From an uncultured Anaerolineae bacterium (GTDB lineage Bacteria; Chloroflexota; Anaerolineae; CG2-30-64-16), in assembly GCA_937124585.1 (NCBI GenBank), contig CAKZKT010000098.1:1-55622 (forward strand): DNA of 55,622 nucleotides, in the 5' to 3' direction. How positions within the stretch are numbered: the first letter of the stretch is position 1; every line of letters begins with the position of its first letter. Made by a program: the position numbers and the translations under genes. Below the pieces are notes generated by a model. That model searched no databases and was not told the DNA's origin. It was given only the letters and a program-made list of their open reading frames with translations. Positions 1,139 to 46,458 of this stretch are shown here, in pieces.

Positions 1139-4100
1139 ATGATGGCCGACGATAGCATGATCCCTGAGCCCGCATCCGTGTCCACGTCCGCTCCCGTGGC
1201 GCCATCGCGCGCGGCCCGGCGTTTCTGGCCGGATGCACGGTTGGAGCTGTTCGTCCCTCGTGGCGCGGATGGCGGCCTGGGCTTGCCGTGGCACAGCGTC
1301 CTCGCGGATTGGGCGCTGCTGGCGCTCTTGGTCTTCGCTTTTTGTGCCGTCTTCTTGGGCTTCGACGACGCGCGCACATTGCCGGGCAACGAAGCGGATG
1401 TCGTGCAGGCGTTGGATTGGACGTTGATCCACAGCCTGACCCACTTCGGCCAGTTCCCGCTGTGGAATCCGTATCTGCGCACCGGCTTCCCGTTCATCGC
1501 CGATCCCTTCCTCCATGTCTACAACCCGGTGGCGACCCTGCCCGTGCTGCTTTTTGGCGTCTGGTCTGGGTTCAAGATCGCATTGTTTCTTTCGTTTCTG
1601 GCCGCCGCGGTGGGCATGTGGTGGCTGGGCGTTGCCCTCGGACTGGGACGGCCGACGCGCCTCTGGATGGGCCTCATGTATGCGTTCACCGGCCAGGCGG
1701 TGGCGCGTTTCTTCCAGGGCGAATACGATTTCGTCCTGGGCTTTGCCTGGATCCCGTGGACGCTGGCGTTCATCTTGCTGGCGGTGCGCACCAGGCGGCG
1801 CAGTCATGCGCTTGTCGCCGCGTTTGCCCTGGCCCTTCTCTTCTTTTCCGGCAACGTTTACTACACGTTCTACATGATCCTCGTGCTTCCCCTGGCCGCG
1901 CTGGTGAGCGCGGCAGAGGTGGATTGGCCTGGTCGTCGCCTGCGCTGGCAGGTCCGGCCGCTGCTGATCATTGCCGTCATCGTGTTGTTGGCGATCGGAT
2001 TGACCGCAATCCAATGGCTGCCGTTGCTGGACTATTGGGGAAGCTACACCAAGATGCCCGATCCGGAGCTGATCGGCTCGCACAGCCTGCGCCAGATCTG
2101 GCTGGACTATGTGTCGAAGGACCCGCAGCGGCCGGATGCCTTCGCAAAATTGCCCTCCGAAGAATTCTACGCCTACACTGGCGTCTGGCCTTTTCTGTTT
2201 TTGGCTTTTGTGCCCCTGGCATATCGTCGCGGCCGACGACGGGAGATCGTTTTCCTGCTGCTTTTGGCGCTGCTGGTGGTTGCCTATGTGGCGACCAGGG
2301 ATATGCCCTGGGCGGGGCTCTACAAAGCGTCTCCGCTGCTGAACCAGTTCCGCTATCAGACGCGGATGCTCATTTACGGCGCGGTGGCGTTGATCGGGCT
2401 TGCCGGCTGTGGGCTCGACGCGATTTGGGCGCGCGTGGGCGCCAGGCCGCGGCTCAGCCTGGTGTCGGTGCCGGCCCTGGCGCGTGGGGCCGGCGCCTGG
2501 CTCGCCGCCATCGTGCTTGTCGCCTGTATGGTCTGGTCGGTGGGCGATGTGTACAGTGCCAACCGGCAATACATGCGGTCGCGCGAGCGGTATCTGCCAC
2601 CATACGAGCTGATGGAATGGCTGCGCCGGCATGATGCTTCGGTTTTCTATCTGGGCGCGCAGCAGGCCAGCTGGCATGGCCCGATCGTTGCGAACGGCAT
2701 CCGCTATCTGGACGCCTGGTATGGAATAACGCCGTTGATGCCCGTCCAGGGGGCCCTGAACACGCGGCCGGTGGTCGCTCGGCCCCACTACATGGCGCTC
2801 GGTAACGATCAGACGCCCGACCGTCCTCACGAGCTGGTGCGTCGTTTTGCGGCGCATAGCATCTGGCGGCTGCCGGACAGCTTGCCCTTTGCCCTCACCG
2901 TGGCCGAGGCCGTGCTGATGAACCCGGCCCTGCGCACCGAGCTGATGGCGTCCGAGGTCAGACCTGTAGCGCCGACGCTGGTCAGCCCCAATCGGATTGC
3001 CGTGCAGACCGACGGGACGGAGGGTGATTGGCTGGTCGTCCTGACCAGCGCCTACCACGGCTGGCGATTGACCGTAGACGGCGGCCCGGCGCGGCTGCGC
3101 AATGTCGGCGGCTACCTGGCCGTGCCGCTTCAGGCCGGTGTGCATCGGTATGAGTTCAGCTTCAGCCCGGCCTCGTTTTGGGTTGGCCTCATCGTGAGTC
3201 TGGCGACGGTGGGCGGACTGGTTGTGTTGGCCGTCGTGCAGGGCAGGCCACGGCGCAGGCGTTTCCGCGTGCAGGCGATGTACGCGCACGGCGTGTTGCA
3301 TCTGGCGCAGCCGTTGGAGCTGGCGGATGAGATGCCGGTGCGCGTCACCGTCGAGCCCATCGAGCAGCCCCAGCCCGAGGCCGAGGTGTGGAACGAGGCA
3401 GACGCCGGCGCAGAGTCGCCCCGGCTGGCGCGGCTGGGCTGGGCCCTGTTTGCCCTGGGCCTGTTCGTCTATCTCGTGACCAGGCTGTGGCAAATTGATC
3501 GGTTCCCGATCAACTTCTTCGCCGACGAGGCGACTTTCGCCCTGCTGGCGCAAGATTTGCTGGTGCACGGCCTGCGGGACAACTATCGTACATTCCTGCC
3601 AGTCTATTTCGAGGTTGCCAGCAACCGCTGGACGCCCGTTCTCGCTGTCTACACCCATTTGCCCGCAGTGGCGATGTTCGGCAAATCCATCGTCGCCGTG
3701 CGGGCGACCTCGGCGCTGGTCACGTTTCTGGTGCCCATTGCGGTCGCTCTGGTCTTGCGGCTGATCTTCCGCGCGCGTTTCTGGTGGGCGGGAGCGCTGA
3801 TCGTTGCCGTCGTCCCGACGTGGTTCATGCATTCCCGGACCGCGTTCGAATGGCTGACGATGGCGTCGTGCTATGCGGGCTTCATCCTGTTCTACCTGCT
3901 CTATCGCACCCGGGCACCGAAGTTTCTCTTCCCGGCCATCCTCTTCGGCGCGGCCACTTTCTACAATCATGCCTCCGGACAGCTGGTTATGGCGGCCGCG
4001 TTCCTTTTCCTGGGACTCTCGGACATTCGTTATCACCTGAAGCACTGGCGCACGATCCTGGTCGGGCTGCTCCTGGTCGCGTTTCTGGCCGTGCCGCTGC

Positions 4101-5491: not shown

Positions 5492-5524
5492 TGCCCGGTA
5501 GAATCTGTCTGCAGCGAGGTGCAC

Positions 5525-8500
5525 ATGACTGACCTGGCGACGAATGCGGTTGCGAGGCGGCGAGAATCTCTGGCGCGGTTTTGGCGCCAGGCGCAGGCCT
5601 GGCTGGCCACCGACGTCGCGACGCGCTGGTTACTGGTCCTGATCCTTCTCGTCGGTGCCTATCTGCGGCTCACTCACCTTAACTGGGATCAGGGCACGCA
5701 CATCCACCCCGACGAGCGCTTCCTGACGATGGTGTCGGATGCCATGCGGCTGCCGCAGAGCCTGGGCGAGTTCTTCGACAGCACGAAGTCGCCCATGAGC
5801 CCGTACAACAAGGGCTACAACTTCTTCGTCTACGGGACGTTGCCCCTCTTCATCGTGAAGGTTGTAGCTGAGGTGGCCAACGAGTTCAACCAGGCCGTTC
5901 AGCTGTGGGTGAACGAGGGGGGCGCGGCGCTTTATTTGACCGGTTATGATGGCATTCACTTCGTGGGTCGCGCGCTGTCGGGCATCTTCGACCTCGGCTG
6001 CGTTTTGCTCGCGTTCGTGATCGGCCGGCGGCTGTACGGCCGCCGGGTGGGGCTGCTGGCCGCCGCGCTCTACGCGTTCGCGGTGTTGCCGTTGCAGCAG
6101 TCCCATTTCTACACGGTGGATACCTTCGGTTCTTTCTTTGCGCTGCTGGCGTTCTATTTCGCGGTGCGCGTGGCGCAGGGAGGCGAACATGGCCGTCGCG
6201 ATGGCGGCTGGGAGAGCTATGTGGGCCTGGGCGCCAGTCTGGGAGCCAGCCTGGCCTGCCGCATCAACCTGGCGCCGCTCGCCGGCATCGCGGTGCTGGC
6301 CGCCGGCATCCGCCTGTGGGATGACTGGCACAGCATGGCGGCTTTTGCGAACGCAAACGGGTCGGACAATGGCCGGCGCCGGCAGAGCGCTTGGCTCGGC
6401 ACGTTGATGCAGGCCACCCTCTTTCGGCTGCTGCTGATGGGCTTCATCACGATTGCTGTCTTCCGCATCGCACAGCCCTACGCATTCGGCGGCACGTCGT
6501 TGCTCGATTTCAGCCTGGCGCCCAAGTTCCGCGACAACATGGCGCAGATCAGCCTGCTCATCCGCGGGGATGCCGACTATCCGCCCGGCCACCAGTGGGC
6601 CAGCCGCACCCCGTTTGTTTTTCCGTTCGTCAACATGGTCGTTTGGGGCCTGGGCCTGCCGCTTGGCCTGGCCGCCTGGGCGAGTTGGGCCGCGGCCGCA
6701 TTCCAGGTAACGGCGGGATTGACCAGGAAAAAAGTAGACAAGGAGACAAAGCAACAGGGCGCCTTGGCGCCCGATCACCGTACCGCGGTTTCATCCCCAC
6801 ATTGGCGCGCCCACCTGCTTCCTGTCGCCTGGATCGGCGGCATGTTCCTCTGGCAGGGGTTGCAATATGTGCAGTCCATGCGCTATCTGCTGCCGATCTA
6901 TCCGCACCTGACGATCATGGCCGCATGGGGGCTGTGGGGGATGGTGGCGTGGACGCACGGGCAGATCGGCAGATCGGCAGATCGGCAAATCGGCAAATCG
7001 GCAATCGGACCGGTGGATGAAGTGGGGGAGGCTGAGCCTGTTCGAACGCCGTTCGTCGCCCGCATGCCGGATTCGGGATTCCGCATTTTGTATTTCACGC
7101 TGCGCATTTTGCGAGGCGCATCGCATGCGTTGTCTATCGTCGTGCGCAGCGTGGAACGTGTGGTGCGCACGCGTCGGTTTGCGTATGGGCTGCTGGCAGC
7201 CGTGACCATCCTGACGATGCTGTGGGGCTGGGGGTTCCTGGCGATCTATCGCCGACCATTGAGCCGGGTGACCGCCTCCCGCTGGATCTATGACAATGTG
7301 CCGCGCGGCAGTGTGATCGCCAACGAGCATTGGGACGACGGCCTGCCCCTGCGCATAGACGGCAAGGACGGTTTTGGCGGCTGGGGCTATCGCGGGCTCA
7401 GCTCCTCCAGCGACGGCTCGATGCAGATGTACATGGAGGATACGCCGGAAAAACGCGAGCTGCTCTACCGTTGGCTCAACGAGGCGGACTACCTCGTCTT
7501 CTCCAGCAACCGGCTGTGGGGCTCGATTCCGCGGCTGCCCATGCGCTACCCGATGACCACGTTGTACTACAAGCTGGTCTTCTCCGGCGAGCTCGGCTTC
7601 GAGCTGGCGGCGCACTTCACGTCTTTTCCGACCATCTTCGGCATCCAGTTCAACGATACGTGGGCCGAAGAGGCATTCAGCGTTTACGATCATCCGGAAG
7701 TGTACATCTTTCGGAAGACGCCGGCCTACAGCGAGGCGCTGGCGCGGTCGTTTTTCGATCCGATTGACCTGGAGCACGTGATCCAGATGTGGCCCAAGCA
7801 GGTGAGCGCGGCGCCGACCGCCCTGCGTTTCACCCCGGAGAAGGCCCAGATCCAGCAGGCGGGCGGCACGTGGAGCGCGCTGTTCAGCGAAGATAGCCTG
7901 CTGAACCGTTCGCCTGTGTTGTCTGTCGTCGCCTGGCTGCTGCTGATCGAACTGCTCGGCCTGGTGGCCTTCCCCATTGCCTTTGTGCTGATGCGCGGCC
8001 TGGCCGACCGCGGCTACGGCGTCAGCAAAATCCTCGGCATCCTCCTGCTGGCCTGGCTGAGCTGGTTCGGCCCCAGCATTGTCGGGACGTTAGTAGAGAC
8101 GTTGCATGCAACGTCTCTACAGATCCCGTATGCGCGCTGGTGGATCGCGCTGATGTTGGGGCTGCTGATCGGCGTGTCGGCGGGCCTGGCCTGGCGCAGG
8201 CGTCACGCGTTCCTGGCCTTTGTCCGCGCACGGCGGAGCCTGCTGCTGACCAGCGAGGCGGTTTTTCTGATCCTGTTCGCCCTGTTTTTGCTGATCCGCA
8301 TCGGCAACCCCGACCTCTGGCATCCGGCGCGCGGGGGCGAGAAGCCGATGGACTTCGCCTACCTGAACGCGGTCATCCGCTCCACGATCTTCCCGCCAAT
8401 TGACCCGTGGCAGTCGGGCGGTTTCATGAACTATTACTACTTCGGCTTCGTCATCGTCGGCACGCCGGTAAAACTGATCAGCATTTTGCCGTGGGTGGCG

Positions 8501-10519
8501 TACAATCTGATCGTGCCTACCCTCTTCGGGCTGACCGGTGTCGCCGCGTTCTCGGTGGCCTTCAACCTGGCCGACGGCGACCGGGACACGGTATTCCCGG
8601 CCGAGGAGGCGCCTTTCGAGGGCCTGCGCATCGGCTCGCTGTTCGCCGGGCTGGCCGGCGTCTTTTTCGTCACCATCGTCGGCAACTTCGGCACGGTCAA
8701 GCTGCTGTTCGATCAGTTTGCGGTGCTCTCGACCCTCGAGATGCAGGGGGCGCTGGGGCTGGGCAAGCTGGCCCGCGTGCTGGACGGCCTGCTGAATTGG
8801 CTTCTCGGCAGGCAGCCGCTGAACTTCCCGAATGACTGGTGGTTCTGGAATCCGTCGCGAGTGATTCCCGATACCATCAACGAGTTTCCGTTCTTCACCT
8901 TTACCTATGCCGACCTGCACGCGCACATGATCGCGCTGCCGTTGACGTTGCTGGCGCTGGCAGTTGCCGTGGCGCTCGTGCGACGGGCAGAGGGCGGCGA
9001 GCCGGGCGAGGTGAGCCATCAGACACAGCCTGAGGAGCCCAGTCCGTGGCGTATCGAACGACGTGAGCTGGAGCTGTTGCTCCTGAGCGGCCTCGTGATC
9101 GGTGCGCTGCGGGCGACGAACACGTGGGACTTCCCCACCTATCTGCTGGCAAGCCTGGCGGCGATTGGGGTGATGGAGGCGACCCGACGGCTGGCACTGC
9201 CCTTCCCGACCGGCCTGGACGAGCGGCTGGGATTTCTGCTGCGCGCTGCCGTGGCCGTCCTCTGGCGGCTGATCGTCGTTGTGGTGGTGAGCAGTCTGAC
9301 GTTTTATCCGTACACCCGCTACTACGCCACAGCTTATGCCGGCTTGCAGCTGTGGCAGGAGAAGACGACCGGCCTGGCCGACTATCTCACCGTGTGGGGC
9401 TTCTTCCTGGCTCTGGCGATCATCTATCTGCTGAGTGAATGGGTCGTGCAGGCGCGCGCGCGTCAGCGGCCGCACTGGCTCGACGAGCTGCTGCCGATCA
9501 TTGTGGCGGCGGCAGTCGTGCTGATGGGCGCCGGTTTGCTGCTGAAGCTCCATGTGTGGCTCGTCGCGGTGCCGCTGTTCGCGCTGGCCGGGGTGCTGGC
9601 GCTGGGCCGCGATCTGCCGCCCACCCGACGGCTGGCCCTGCTTCTGCTCTGCCTGGCGCTGGCGATCACGATGGGGGTCGAGGTAGTGCGCCAGAAAGAC
9701 GACATCGGCCGGATGAACACGGTCTTCAAGTTTTACATGCAGGCGTGGGTGCTGTTCGGCGTGGCGACGGCGTTCGGGCTGGCGAACTGGGCGGCACGGG
9801 CGATGACCTGGCGACGAGACTGGCGTCGGCTGGCGTGGGGCGTCACGGCCGTTTTCTTCGCCGGCGTCATGCTCTACCCGGTCACCGCGGCGCCGGCCAA
9901 GATCCGGGACCGCTTCTCGGCCGAGGCGTCTCCGCGCGGCCTCGACGGCATGGCCTACATGGAGCGGGCGAAGTATTTCGACAACAATCGCGACCTCAGG
10001 CTGGATCAGGATAAAGATGCCATCCTGTGGCTGCTCCGCAACGTCGAAGGCTCGCCGGTGATCCTGGAGGCGCAGACGCCCGAATACCGGTGGGGCAGCC
10101 GCTTCAGCATTTACACCGGCCTGCCCACGGTGCAGGGCTGGAACTGGCATCAGAAGCAGCAGCGCAGCGTGGTGCCGGGCACCGTGATTGACCGCCGGGT
10201 GGCGCACGTGCGCGAGATCTACGAGACGACCGATCTGGCTCGGGCCCGCAAGCTGTTGAACTACTACGACGTGAGCTACATCATTGTCGGTGAGCTGGAG
10301 CGGGCCTATTACAATCCGGCCGGCCTGGCGAAGTTCGACATCTGGGCGCAAGAGGGCTATCTGGAACGCGTGTACGCGGGCGGCGTCGTGACGATTTATC
10401 GGGTGTCCCGGCCCGGCACCGCGGTCGCGGGCACCGCGCCCGCCTCCGGCATCGGCCCGCGGCCCGTGCCCACACCGACGCCGCTCGCGGCGCAGCCGTT
10501 CACCTCGCCGCAGCGGTGA
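5525..10519 (+). CDS. PMT-like glycosyltransferase fused to Chlor_Arch_YYY (DUF2298) domain
   Basis: About 1664 residues from ATG 5525 (a GTG at 5519 is also possible). The N-terminal half is a PMT/ArnT-like GT-C unit with the first luminal acidic pair in HPDERF (D63-E64). The C-terminal half is the Chlor_Arch_YYY domain, with GGEKPMDFAYLNAVIRS and the name-giving YYY motif at Y970-Y972, followed by INEFPFFTFTYADLHAHM and, near the end, MNTVFKFYMQAW. Compared with the paralogue at 10554-15197, it carries extra segments exactly where short repeats lie: about residues 400-425, about 475-545, and 857-866 (palindrome). YYY proteins are known mostly from Chloroflexi and archaea and have no proven activity; a role in glycan transfer or lipid-linked sugar handling is inferred from the GT-C half and neighbours. 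Confidence 0.85.
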   Translation: MTDLATNAVARRRESLARFWRQAQAWLATDVATRWLLVLILLVGAYLRLTHLNWDQGTHIHPDERFLTMVSDAMRLPQSLGEFFDSTKSPMSPYNKGYNFFVYGTLPLFIVKVVAEVANEFNQAVQLWVNEGGAALYLTGYDGIHFVGRALSGIFDLGCVLLAFVIGRRLYGRRVGLLAAALYAFAVLPLQQSHFYTVDTFGSFFALLAFYFAVRVAQGGEHGRRDGGWESYVGLGASLGASLACRINLAPLAGIAVLAAGIRLWDDWHSMAAFANANGSDNGRRRQSAWLGTLMQATLFRLLLMGFITIAVFRIAQPYAFGGTSLLDFSLAPKFRDNMAQISLLIRGDADYPPGHQWASRTPFVFPFVNMVVWGLGLPLGLAAWASWAAAAFQVTAGLTRKKVDKETKQQGALAPDHRTAVSSPHWRAHLLPVAWIGGMFLWQGLQYVQSMRYLLPIYPHLTIMAAWGLWGMVAWTHGQIGRSADRQIGKSAIGPVDEVGEAEPVRTPFVARMPDSGFRILYFTLRILRGASHALSIVVRSVERVVRTRRFAYGLLAAVTILTMLWGWGFLAIYRRPLSRVTASRWIYDNVPRGSVIANEHWDDGLPLRIDGKDGFGGWGYRGLSSSSDGSMQMYMEDTPEKRELLYRWLNEADYLVFSSNRLWGSIPRLPMRYPMTTLYYKLVFSGELGFELAAHFTSFPTIFGIQFNDTWAEEAFSVYDHPEVYIFRKTPAYSEALARSFFDPIDLEHVIQMWPKQVSAAPTALRFTPEKAQIQQAGGTWSALFSEDSLLNRSPVLSVVAWLLLIELLGLVAFPIAFVLMRGLADRGYGVSKILGILLLAWLSWFGPSIVGTLVETLHATSLQIPYARWWIALMLGLLIGVSAGLAWRRRHAFLAFVRARRSLLLTSEAVFLILFALFLLIRIGNPDLWHPARGGEKPMDFAYLNAVIRSTIFPPIDPWQSGGFMNYYYFGFVIVGTPVKLISILPWVAYNLIVPTLFGLTGVAAFSVAFNLADGDRDTVFPAEEAPFEGLRIGSLFAGLAGVFFVTIVGNFGTVKLLFDQFAVLSTLEMQGALGLGKLARVLDGLLNWLLGRQPLNFPNDWWFWNPSRVIPDTINEFPFFTFTYADLHAHMIALPLTLLALAVAVALVRRAEGGEPGEVSHQTQPEEPSPWRIERRELELLLLSGLVIGALRATNTWDFPTYLLASLAAIGVMEATRRLALPFPTGLDERLGFLLRAAVAVLWRLIVVVVVSSLTFYPYTRYYATAYAGLQLWQEKTTGLADYLTVWGFFLALAIIYLLSEWVVQARARQRPHWLDELLPIIVAAAVVLMGAGLLLKLHVWLVAVPLFALAGVLALGRDLPPTRRLALLLLCLALAITMGVEVVRQKDDIGRMNTVFKFYMQAWVLFGVATAFGLANWAARAMTWRRDWRRLAWGVTAVFFAGVMLYPVTAAPAKIRDRFSAEASPRGLDGMAYMERAKYFDNNRDLRLDQDKDAILWLLRNVEGSPVILEAQTPEYRWGSRFSIYTGLPTVQGWNWHQKQQRSVVPGTVIDRRVAHVREIYETTDLARARKLLNYYDVSYIIVGELERAYYNPAGLAKFDIWAQEGYLERVYAGGVVTIYRVSRPGTAVAGTAPASGIGPRPVPTPTPLAAQPFTSPQR
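6734..6749 (+). repeat. Octamer tandem repeat, family A, inside a coding region
   Basis: Two adjacent 8-bp units, GTAGACAA and GGAGACAA, followed by AGCAAC. The same unit type fills the intergenic tract at 46379-46458, and a degenerate relative (GGAAGACAAAGCAA) lies near 34117 in the RluB-Cmk linker. Here the repeat encodes VDKET inside a loop of the PMT-YYY protein that its paralogue lacks. Confidence 0.75.
6961..7007 (+). repeat. Octamer tandem repeat, family B (GCAGATCG), inside a coding region
   Basis: Three units of GCAGATCG followed by two of GCAAATCG and a degraded GCAATCGG. It encodes the low-complexity segment IGRSADRQIGKSAIG in the large PMT-YYY protein. The reading frame stays open even though the 8-bp unit is not a multiple of three. 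The flanking protein aligns with the paralogue only outside this tract. Confidence 0.8.
7058..7130 (+). repeat. Degenerate repeat tract with GCATTTTG words inside a coding region
   Basis: The words GATTCGGGATTCCGCATTTTG, in two pieces, and CGCTGCGCATTTTGCG recur within about 70 bp, with TATTTCACGCTGCG shared in part with the tract at 10600-10630. It encodes the RILYFTLRILRG segment of the PMT-YYY protein, which the paralogue lacks. Boundaries are approximate. Confidence 0.5.
8093..8120. repeat. Perfect 28-bp palindrome inside a coding region
   Basis: GTAGAGACGTTGCA is followed at once by its exact reverse complement TGCAACGTCTCTAC. It lies in frame in the PMT-YYY gene and encodes VETLHATSLQ (residues about 857-866), between WFGPSIVGT and IPYARWW. 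The two paralogues at 10554 and 15331 have no such residues at the equivalent place, so it looks like a 30-bp insertion of a repetitive extragenic palindrome-like element. Similar palindromes are, from memory, frequent in some cyanobacterial and Chloroflexi genomes. Confidence 0.9.
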
Positions 10520-45574: not shown

Positions 45575-46378
45575 ATGGAACTCACCGGCTATGTGGATTT
45601 TTGGTTTCGTGATCTGCCCATCGTCGAGCGGATTCAGCATTTTGAGCGATTGGGCATCCGTCGGCTGGATGTATGGCTCTGGCGCGAGCGGCCGATGGCC
45701 GAGATCTACGCCGAGTGCAAAGCGCGCGGCATGATCATCAACTCGACTTTCGATGGCGAATGCGGCAACCTGGTGGACGCCACCGATCACGACCGGGTGC
45801 TGCGCGCCTGGAACGAATCGCTCGAAATGGCGGTTCGCTACGAAATTCCTCATCTGTTCATTTTCTCCAATCAGATAGAGGTCACGCCGCGGGGAGAGTG
45901 GGTACAGCGTCTGAATCGCGACTACACGCCGGCCGAGATGTACGCCAACTTGCTGGATGGCGTGGAGAAGGTGATGAAGCTGGTCAAGCAGACCACCGTG
46001 CAGCTCTGGTTCGAGGCGTTGAACACGTTCCACATCCACGGCGGCGTCTTCGTCTGTACGCACGATCTGGCCGCCGATGTCGTGCGGCGTTTCGATGACC
46101 CGCAGCTGCGGTTATCGTTCGACTGCTATCACCAGCAGCGCACCGCGGGCAACCTGATCTGGGGCATGGAGCAGTACTTCGGCCTCTATCCCACCTTCCA
46201 CATCGGCGACTGTCCGACGCGGCAGGAGCCGGGCACCGGTGAGATCAACTTCACCAACATCTCGAAGAAGCTGGATGAACTGGGCTACGACGGCCTGATC
46301 GGCATGGAGTGCTACCCGAGCACGACGGAGGAAGAGGCGCTGGCACGGATCCGGAGCTACTTCCCGCGGGCGAGGTAG
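45575..46378 (+). CDS. Hydroxypyruvate isomerase-like sugar isomerase/epimerase
   Basis: 267 residues, ATG 45575 with AGGAG upstream. TIM-barrel of the Hyi/IolE type: metal and catalytic regions LWFEALNTFH, LSFDCYHQQRTAGNL and the highly characteristic IGDCPTRQEPGTGEINF, then LGYDGLIGMECYPS. Hyi converts hydroxypyruvate and tartronate semialdehyde; relatives act on ketoses. With the kinase and aldolases downstream it may isomerise an aldose or keto-sugar before phosphorylation. Confidence 0.87.
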   Translation: MELTGYVDFWFRDLPIVERIQHFERLGIRRLDVWLWRERPMAEIYAECKARGMIINSTFDGECGNLVDATDHDRVLRAWNESLEMAVRYEIPHLFIFSNQIEVTPRGEWVQRLNRDYTPAEMYANLLDGVEKVMKLVKQTTVQLWFEALNTFHIHGGVFVCTHDLAADVVRRFDDPQLRLSFDCYHQQRTAGNLIWGMEQYFGLYPTFHIGDCPTRQEPGTGEINFTNISKKLDELGYDGLIGMECYPSTTEEEALARIRSYFPRAR

Positions 46379-46458
46379 GTAGACAAGGAGACAAGGAGAC
46401 AAGGAAACAAGTCCCCTTGTCTACCTGTCTACCTGTCTACTTGTCTACTTGTCTACTT
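46379..46458. repeat. Inverted arrays of an 8-bp unit (family A)
   Basis: Starts right after the isomerase stop. Left arm: four units GTAGACAA, GGAGACAA, GGAGACAA, GGAAACAA. Right arm: five units in reverse orientation (revcomp GTAGACAA or GTAGACAG). The arms can pair imperfectly around TCCC. It is not a CRISPR (no spacers) nor a normal terminator (no T run). Confidence 0.85.

Follow-up and report, generated by a model that had tools for sequence, protein, structure and literature searches.

The GTAG REP superfamily comprises short dispersed palindromes that are mostly extragenic and carry GTAG at one end outside the base pairing; REPs inside palindromic targets and intragenic REPs have already been reported (PMC3733652). 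A RAYT flanked by its own REPs constitutes a REPtron (PMC2817692; Nunvar 2010), and CT is the reported cleavage site of TnpAREP enzymes (PMC8266576). Among the Rickettsia palindromic elements (RPE), RPE-4 and RPE-6 are CGTC REPs and RPE-1 is longer (PMC3733652). Here, we analyzed a palindrome in a 55,622-nucleotide contig (CAKZKT010000098.1, the window) of an uncultured Anaerolineae bacterium. Dispersed copies, empty sites, in-frame genic copies, patchiness, and flanks together indicate that it is very probably a copy of a very small nonautonomous mobile repeat, a fully paired 28-bp GTAG...CTAC palindrome, inserted in frame. This high confidence applies to its identity (mobile dispersed palindrome and in-frame insertion) and excludes the enzyme. 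The locus comprises the following features.

5519 to 10519, plus strand: host gene for a 1,666-aa membrane protein with PMT_2-like and DUF2298 domains (open reading frame and domain search).
8093 to 8120, no strand: 28-bp perfect palindrome GTAGAGACGTTGCATGCAACGTCTCTAC, copy of a dispersed element (sequence, genome copies, and fold).
8088 to 8123, plus strand: approximate 36-bp insertion relative to seven orthologues; this placement leaves CGGGA directly joined to TCCCG at the junction.
8081 to 8092, plus strand: GTCGGGACGTTA, candidate decayed extra 12-bp arm, inferred from 9 of 12 matches to GTAGAGACGTTG.
8083 to 8087, plus strand: CGGGA, left half of a candidate short inverted target; the 5-bp pairing with 8124 to 8128 is weak and near chance.
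8124 to 8128, plus strand: TCCCG, right half of the candidate inverted target, likewise weak.

A preliminary description had noted a perfect 28-bp palindrome at 8093 to 8120, in frame in a membrane-protein gene. Sequence and open reading frame confirmed this, and translation of the ORF at 5519 to 10519, in which DUF2298 was detected with an E value of 1.7e-115 (domain search), yielded the described peptide VETLHATSLQ. Folding of GTAGAGACGTTGCATGCAACGTCTCTAC as single-stranded DNA resulted in a 12-bp stem with a CATG loop. Two of the three reading frames of the palindrome lack a stop. By chance, the window should contain no match at three or fewer mismatches (0 of 100 shuffles). The empty site was found in every same-family orthologue examined: all seven, 64 to 73% identical to the host protein, lacked 12 residues (36 bp) at the palindrome, reading GPSLK-xxPY (one GPALK) where the host protein has GPSIVGTLVETLHATSLQIPY. 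The VETLHATSLQ residues were also missing from both paralogues in the window, as previously described; the insertion measures 36 bp rather than 30 bp, since the orthologues are shorter by that amount. Divergence of the orthologues around the site leaves the exact edges of the insertion ambiguous and not fixable to the base. The approximately 8 bp beyond the 28-mer may represent the decayed arm GTCGGGACGTTA, for which an intact arm-plus-palindrome compound at C121:26491-26530 provides a model, or ordinary divergence. Hydropathy placed the insertion in a short stretch separating two hydrophobic segments, consistent with the proposed tolerance in a loop; judged from the sequence, the copy appears to have entered in frame the turn between two transmembrane segments of the DUF2298 protein. 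A recent insertion is plausible, since the window copy bears no mutation and sister genera lack it. The same gene contains, at window positions 6960 to 7008, an in-frame 8-bp tandem repeat (GGCAGATC, six units) that encodes GQIGRSADRQIGKSAIG and is probably one more decorative linker repeat. At positions 46377 to 46458, an inverted pair of 8-bp tandem repeats (AGACAAGG / CTTGTCTA) was observed, and similar residues, likewise coded by repeats, are located at the upstream ends of ORFs in two loci of the same genome (L045 and L048).

The 28-mer occurred 20 times in the host genome (4.83 Mb, 164 contigs) when up to three mismatches were allowed, and 14 of these copies were exact; a reversed-pattern control gave none. 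These copies and the seven orthologues with an empty site support the initial reading as an in-frame insertion of a mobile palindromic repeat; the palindrome is neither unique in the genome nor conserved as protein in the orthologues. Two pairs of copies were spaced 14 and 17 bp apart, one copy (C121:26491) was directly preceded by the exact 12-bp arm GTAGAGACGTTG, and rows of degenerate arms followed other copies. About 8 of the 20 copies were located inside genes, all in frame, as judged by spanning open frames and domain searches. These genes encode the DUF2298 protein, a PMT-type membrane protein, PurH, RsmF, rhamnulokinase, a molybdenum hydroxylase, dihydropyrimidinase and, less certainly, an oligopeptide ABC ATPase with a copy near its N terminus; at least six copies besides that in the window are in frame in conserved genes. 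Domains flank the copy on both sides in RsmF and other cases, and solved homologues are gapped at the palindrome site for four genic copies, including those in rhamnulokinase and molybdenum hydroxylase. For dihydropyrimidinase, six of the more distant aligned orthologues lacked exactly 14 residues; this gap of 42 bp is close to the 40 bp of the arm-plus-palindrome compound. The copy on contig C125 has an 8-bp mirrored flank, with orthologues too diverged to show whether the mirror predated the insertion. This copy may have replaced some sequence, because the net difference in length from the orthologues is small.

Other palindromes occupied the same loops in sister genera. The purH linker carried a 52-bp perfect palindrome (GTAGGGGCGGG...CCCGCCCCTAC) in relative G005 and another repeat-like stretch in G006 (loci L238 and L255), while the dihydropyrimidinase linker contained GACCTGTCAGGTTTCGAAAACCTGACAGGTC in G004 and a C/G-rich inverted repeat in G009 (loci L260 and L261). 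These differing inserts suggest that permissive loops in the family of the host have been filled repeatedly by unrelated repeats.

Beyond this genome, the exact 28-mer was present in at least 116 contig stretches of a species-level genome set. Among the matches listed, it occurred in isolates and metagenome-assembled genomes (MAGs) of more than 10 phyla, with carrier groups taken from record titles: cyanobacteria, Chloroflexota, Bacteroidota, Gammaproteobacteria, Desulfuromonas, Desulfamplus, Spirochaetaceae (one), Calditrichia, Fibrobacter, a Gemmatimonadetes, Chlorobiota, Stygiobacter, and an actinobacterium. Named carriers include Runella defluvii DSM 17976, Taibaiella helva F-4, Desulfamplus magnetovallimortis, and many cultured cyanobacteria. 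The distribution was patchy, with 5 of 99 relatives, 3 of 399 other Chloroflexota, and 11 of 117 cyanobacteria carrying the 28-mer, the last with up to 94 copies. Twenty-one of 111 copies in other genomes lay inside open frames of at least 150 aa, and domain searches supported real host genes for SMC, two Mfd proteins, MenC, UbiA, LanM, and histidine kinases. The two genes for Mfd (transcription-repair coupling factor), from a Tannerella MAG and a Coleofasciculus MAG (L071:546-4013 and L061:172-3702), contain the 28-mer in frame at different positions. A search for phage carriage found the 28-mer in none of 50,697 phage records, in three viral contigs, and in three cyanobacterial plasmids. A literature search with the exact 28-mer and its halves returned no relevant paper.

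In the flanks, mirrored runs of at least 5 bp were found at 11 of 136 copies, compared to 0.7 expected from shuffles (maximum of 4); the longest extended over 18 bp, and at L136 the flanks resembled a diverged copy of the element itself. CT adjoined GTAG at 51 of 276 flanks, a 3.5-fold enrichment over the 14.7 expected. TT and AT were enriched beside GTAG as well, less strongly than CT, whose excess belongs to a general preference for YT/AT; the insertion side favored by the 28-mer is YT immediately followed by GTAG. Near-palindromes with GTAG...CTAC ends in all DNA fetched to that point measured 28 bp in 163 of 167 cases, of which 139 were the 28-mer by construction, as the loci had been chosen for it. 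Among the other 28, 24 were also 28 bp, including some single-base variants of the 28-mer; their interiors differed, yet were nearly or fully self-complementary, and their ends usually read GTAG(A/G)G(A/G)C. Control GATG...CATC palindromes of 28 bp were absent from the same DNA. A fixed length combined with differing self-complementary interiors suggests that the 28-mer belongs to a larger family of fully paired palindromes of this length. A far-reaching version, which we consider possible but doubtful, is a single superfamily of strictly 28-bp fully paired GTAG-RGRC...GYCY-CTAC palindromes with free self-complementary interiors. Such elements would cross phyla by means of a yet-unrecognized hairpin-specific single-strand enzyme, without target duplication and often at the centers of inverted repeats, and would repeatedly lengthen loops of essential proteins in frame.

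One recognizable RAYT was detected in the genome (NF047646, 87 bits versus a cutoff of 80), and the palindrome bracketing it on both sides was a different one, GCGGGGACAYGTCCCCGC. The gene is located at L273:6424-6951 (G000:C102), with repeated copies of the GGATTGCGGGGACAYGTCCCCGCTTTGGA palindrome at about 6140 to 6290 and 6967 to 7105; this arrangement is a Chloroflexota REPtron that has a repeat of its own. Mobilization of the 28-mer in cis by the RAYT of its own genome was rejected, as that RAYT carries another palindrome. Y1-type transposases occurred in most carriers of the 28-mer and RAYT-type genes in many, but of the 29 Y1-transposase loci initially drawn from carriers, only 1 had the 28-mer nearby, a comparison restricted by contig breaks. 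One RAYT-like gene in a gammaproteobacterium had the 28-mer about 120 bp away. The local RAYT had its four closest relatives, at 29 to 34% identity, in three cyanobacterial carriers and a Calditrichota carrier; this kinship, from a comparison among carriers, is only a lead. A Calditrichaceae RAYT-like gene (L287, around 1370 to 3080) lies amid several GTGCAAAACT...AGTTTTGCAC palindromes, which appear to be the REP family of that gene. We propose that the 28-mer, as single-stranded DNA, would fold into its 12-bp hairpin, and that a hairpin-recognizing single-strand enzyme would cleave next to YT. The same candidate enzyme would then paste the hairpin without target duplication, sometimes at the center of a preexisting inverted repeat, and insertions that keep the frame and fall in loops would survive selection. 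A tentative candidate for this enzyme is a trans-acting HUH transposase of the RAYT/TnpAREP type, which might come from another replicon; we place its chance somewhat below even.

The nearest rival holds that the 28-mer is a classical GTAG REP and forms a REPtron with its own RAYT, which would move it in cis. Its length, GTAG start, dispersal, doublets 14 and 17 bp apart, and YT preference would all fit, as would the many carriers with RAYT-type genes. However, the tag that is unpaired in GTAG REPs (PMC3733652) is here paired with CTAC, the RAYT of this genome is bracketed by another palindrome, and neighboring GTAG...CTAC palindromes are strictly 28 bp, whereas REP stems and loops vary in length; we regard this explanation as unlikely. 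Dispersal and inverted-repeat structure would also suit a tiny MITE whose terminal inverted repeats are the 14-bp arms and which depends on a conventional DDE transposase. The target duplication for which the preliminary description had proposed a check did not materialize: over 136 copies, direct-repeat flanks matched the shuffled control. Moreover, nothing lies between the arms, and the size is strictly 28 bp with an interior that is variable but self-complementary. The MITE reading is already disfavored and very improbable.

That the 28-mer is exactly the same in different phyla suggests strong sequence constraint, as expected if it were a conserved regulatory or protein-binding operator or a selected coding peptide that only seems mobile. 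Against this, the genes containing copies are unrelated, the frames read differ (VETLHATSL and RDVACNVST), orthologues lack the copies, relatives carry them patchily, and positional conservation beside orthologous genes in several genera has not been seen so far; we give this explanation a slim chance, even below that of a MITE. An assembly or contamination artifact might be suspected from the 164-contig assembly and the many MAGs among the carriers, but the palindrome lies within continuous ORFs with homology on either side, and named strains, Runella defluvii DSM 17976 among them, also carry it, as do many cultured cyanobacteria, which leaves this possibility negligible. A mobile dispersed palindrome inserted in frame remains our preferred reading. 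Of known mobile DNAs that have exact copies in more than 10 phyla, the 28-mer may be one of the smallest. The purH and dihydropyrimidinase loops, with their different palindromes in sister genera, offer natural experiments on the tolerance of proteins to sudden in-frame insertions, and the fixed size, ends, and flank rule make the hunt for the mobilizing enzyme concrete.

Compared to described systems, the 28-mer works like a REP or an RPE. It shares with GTAG REPs (Di Nocera 2013, PMC3733652; Nunvar 2010, PMC2817692; PMC8266576) dispersal as a short palindrome within the 20- to 40-bp range, the GTAG start, some intragenic in-frame copies, some copies in palindromic targets, and a CT-type flank. 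It differs in that GTAG lies within the 12-bp stem, wholly paired with CTAC, so that perfect symmetry makes both ends identical, as well as in its strict 28 bp and in the occurrence of the same exact sequence in more than 10 phyla. Because GTAG is paired and the local RAYT, with its own GCGGGGACAYGTCCCCGC, is not flanked by the 28-mer, it is not a standard GTAG REP. Direct target-site duplications, characteristic of DDE MITEs, were not found among the 136 copies. Like RPE, the 28-mer is a palindromic repeat in frame at tolerant places in unrelated protein genes (DUF2298, dihydropyrimidinase, purH, rhamnulokinase, RsmF, and others); its GTAG ends and many phyla set it apart from the RPE descriptions. 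Elhai is said to have described, in 2008, small dispersed repeats (SDR) of Nostoc and its relatives that are 21 to 27 nt long, hairpin forming, and self-nesting. By description, the likeness extends to the hosts, as cyanobacteria are the richest hosts of the 28-mer seen here too, but the reach of the 28-mer extends far past cyanobacteria.
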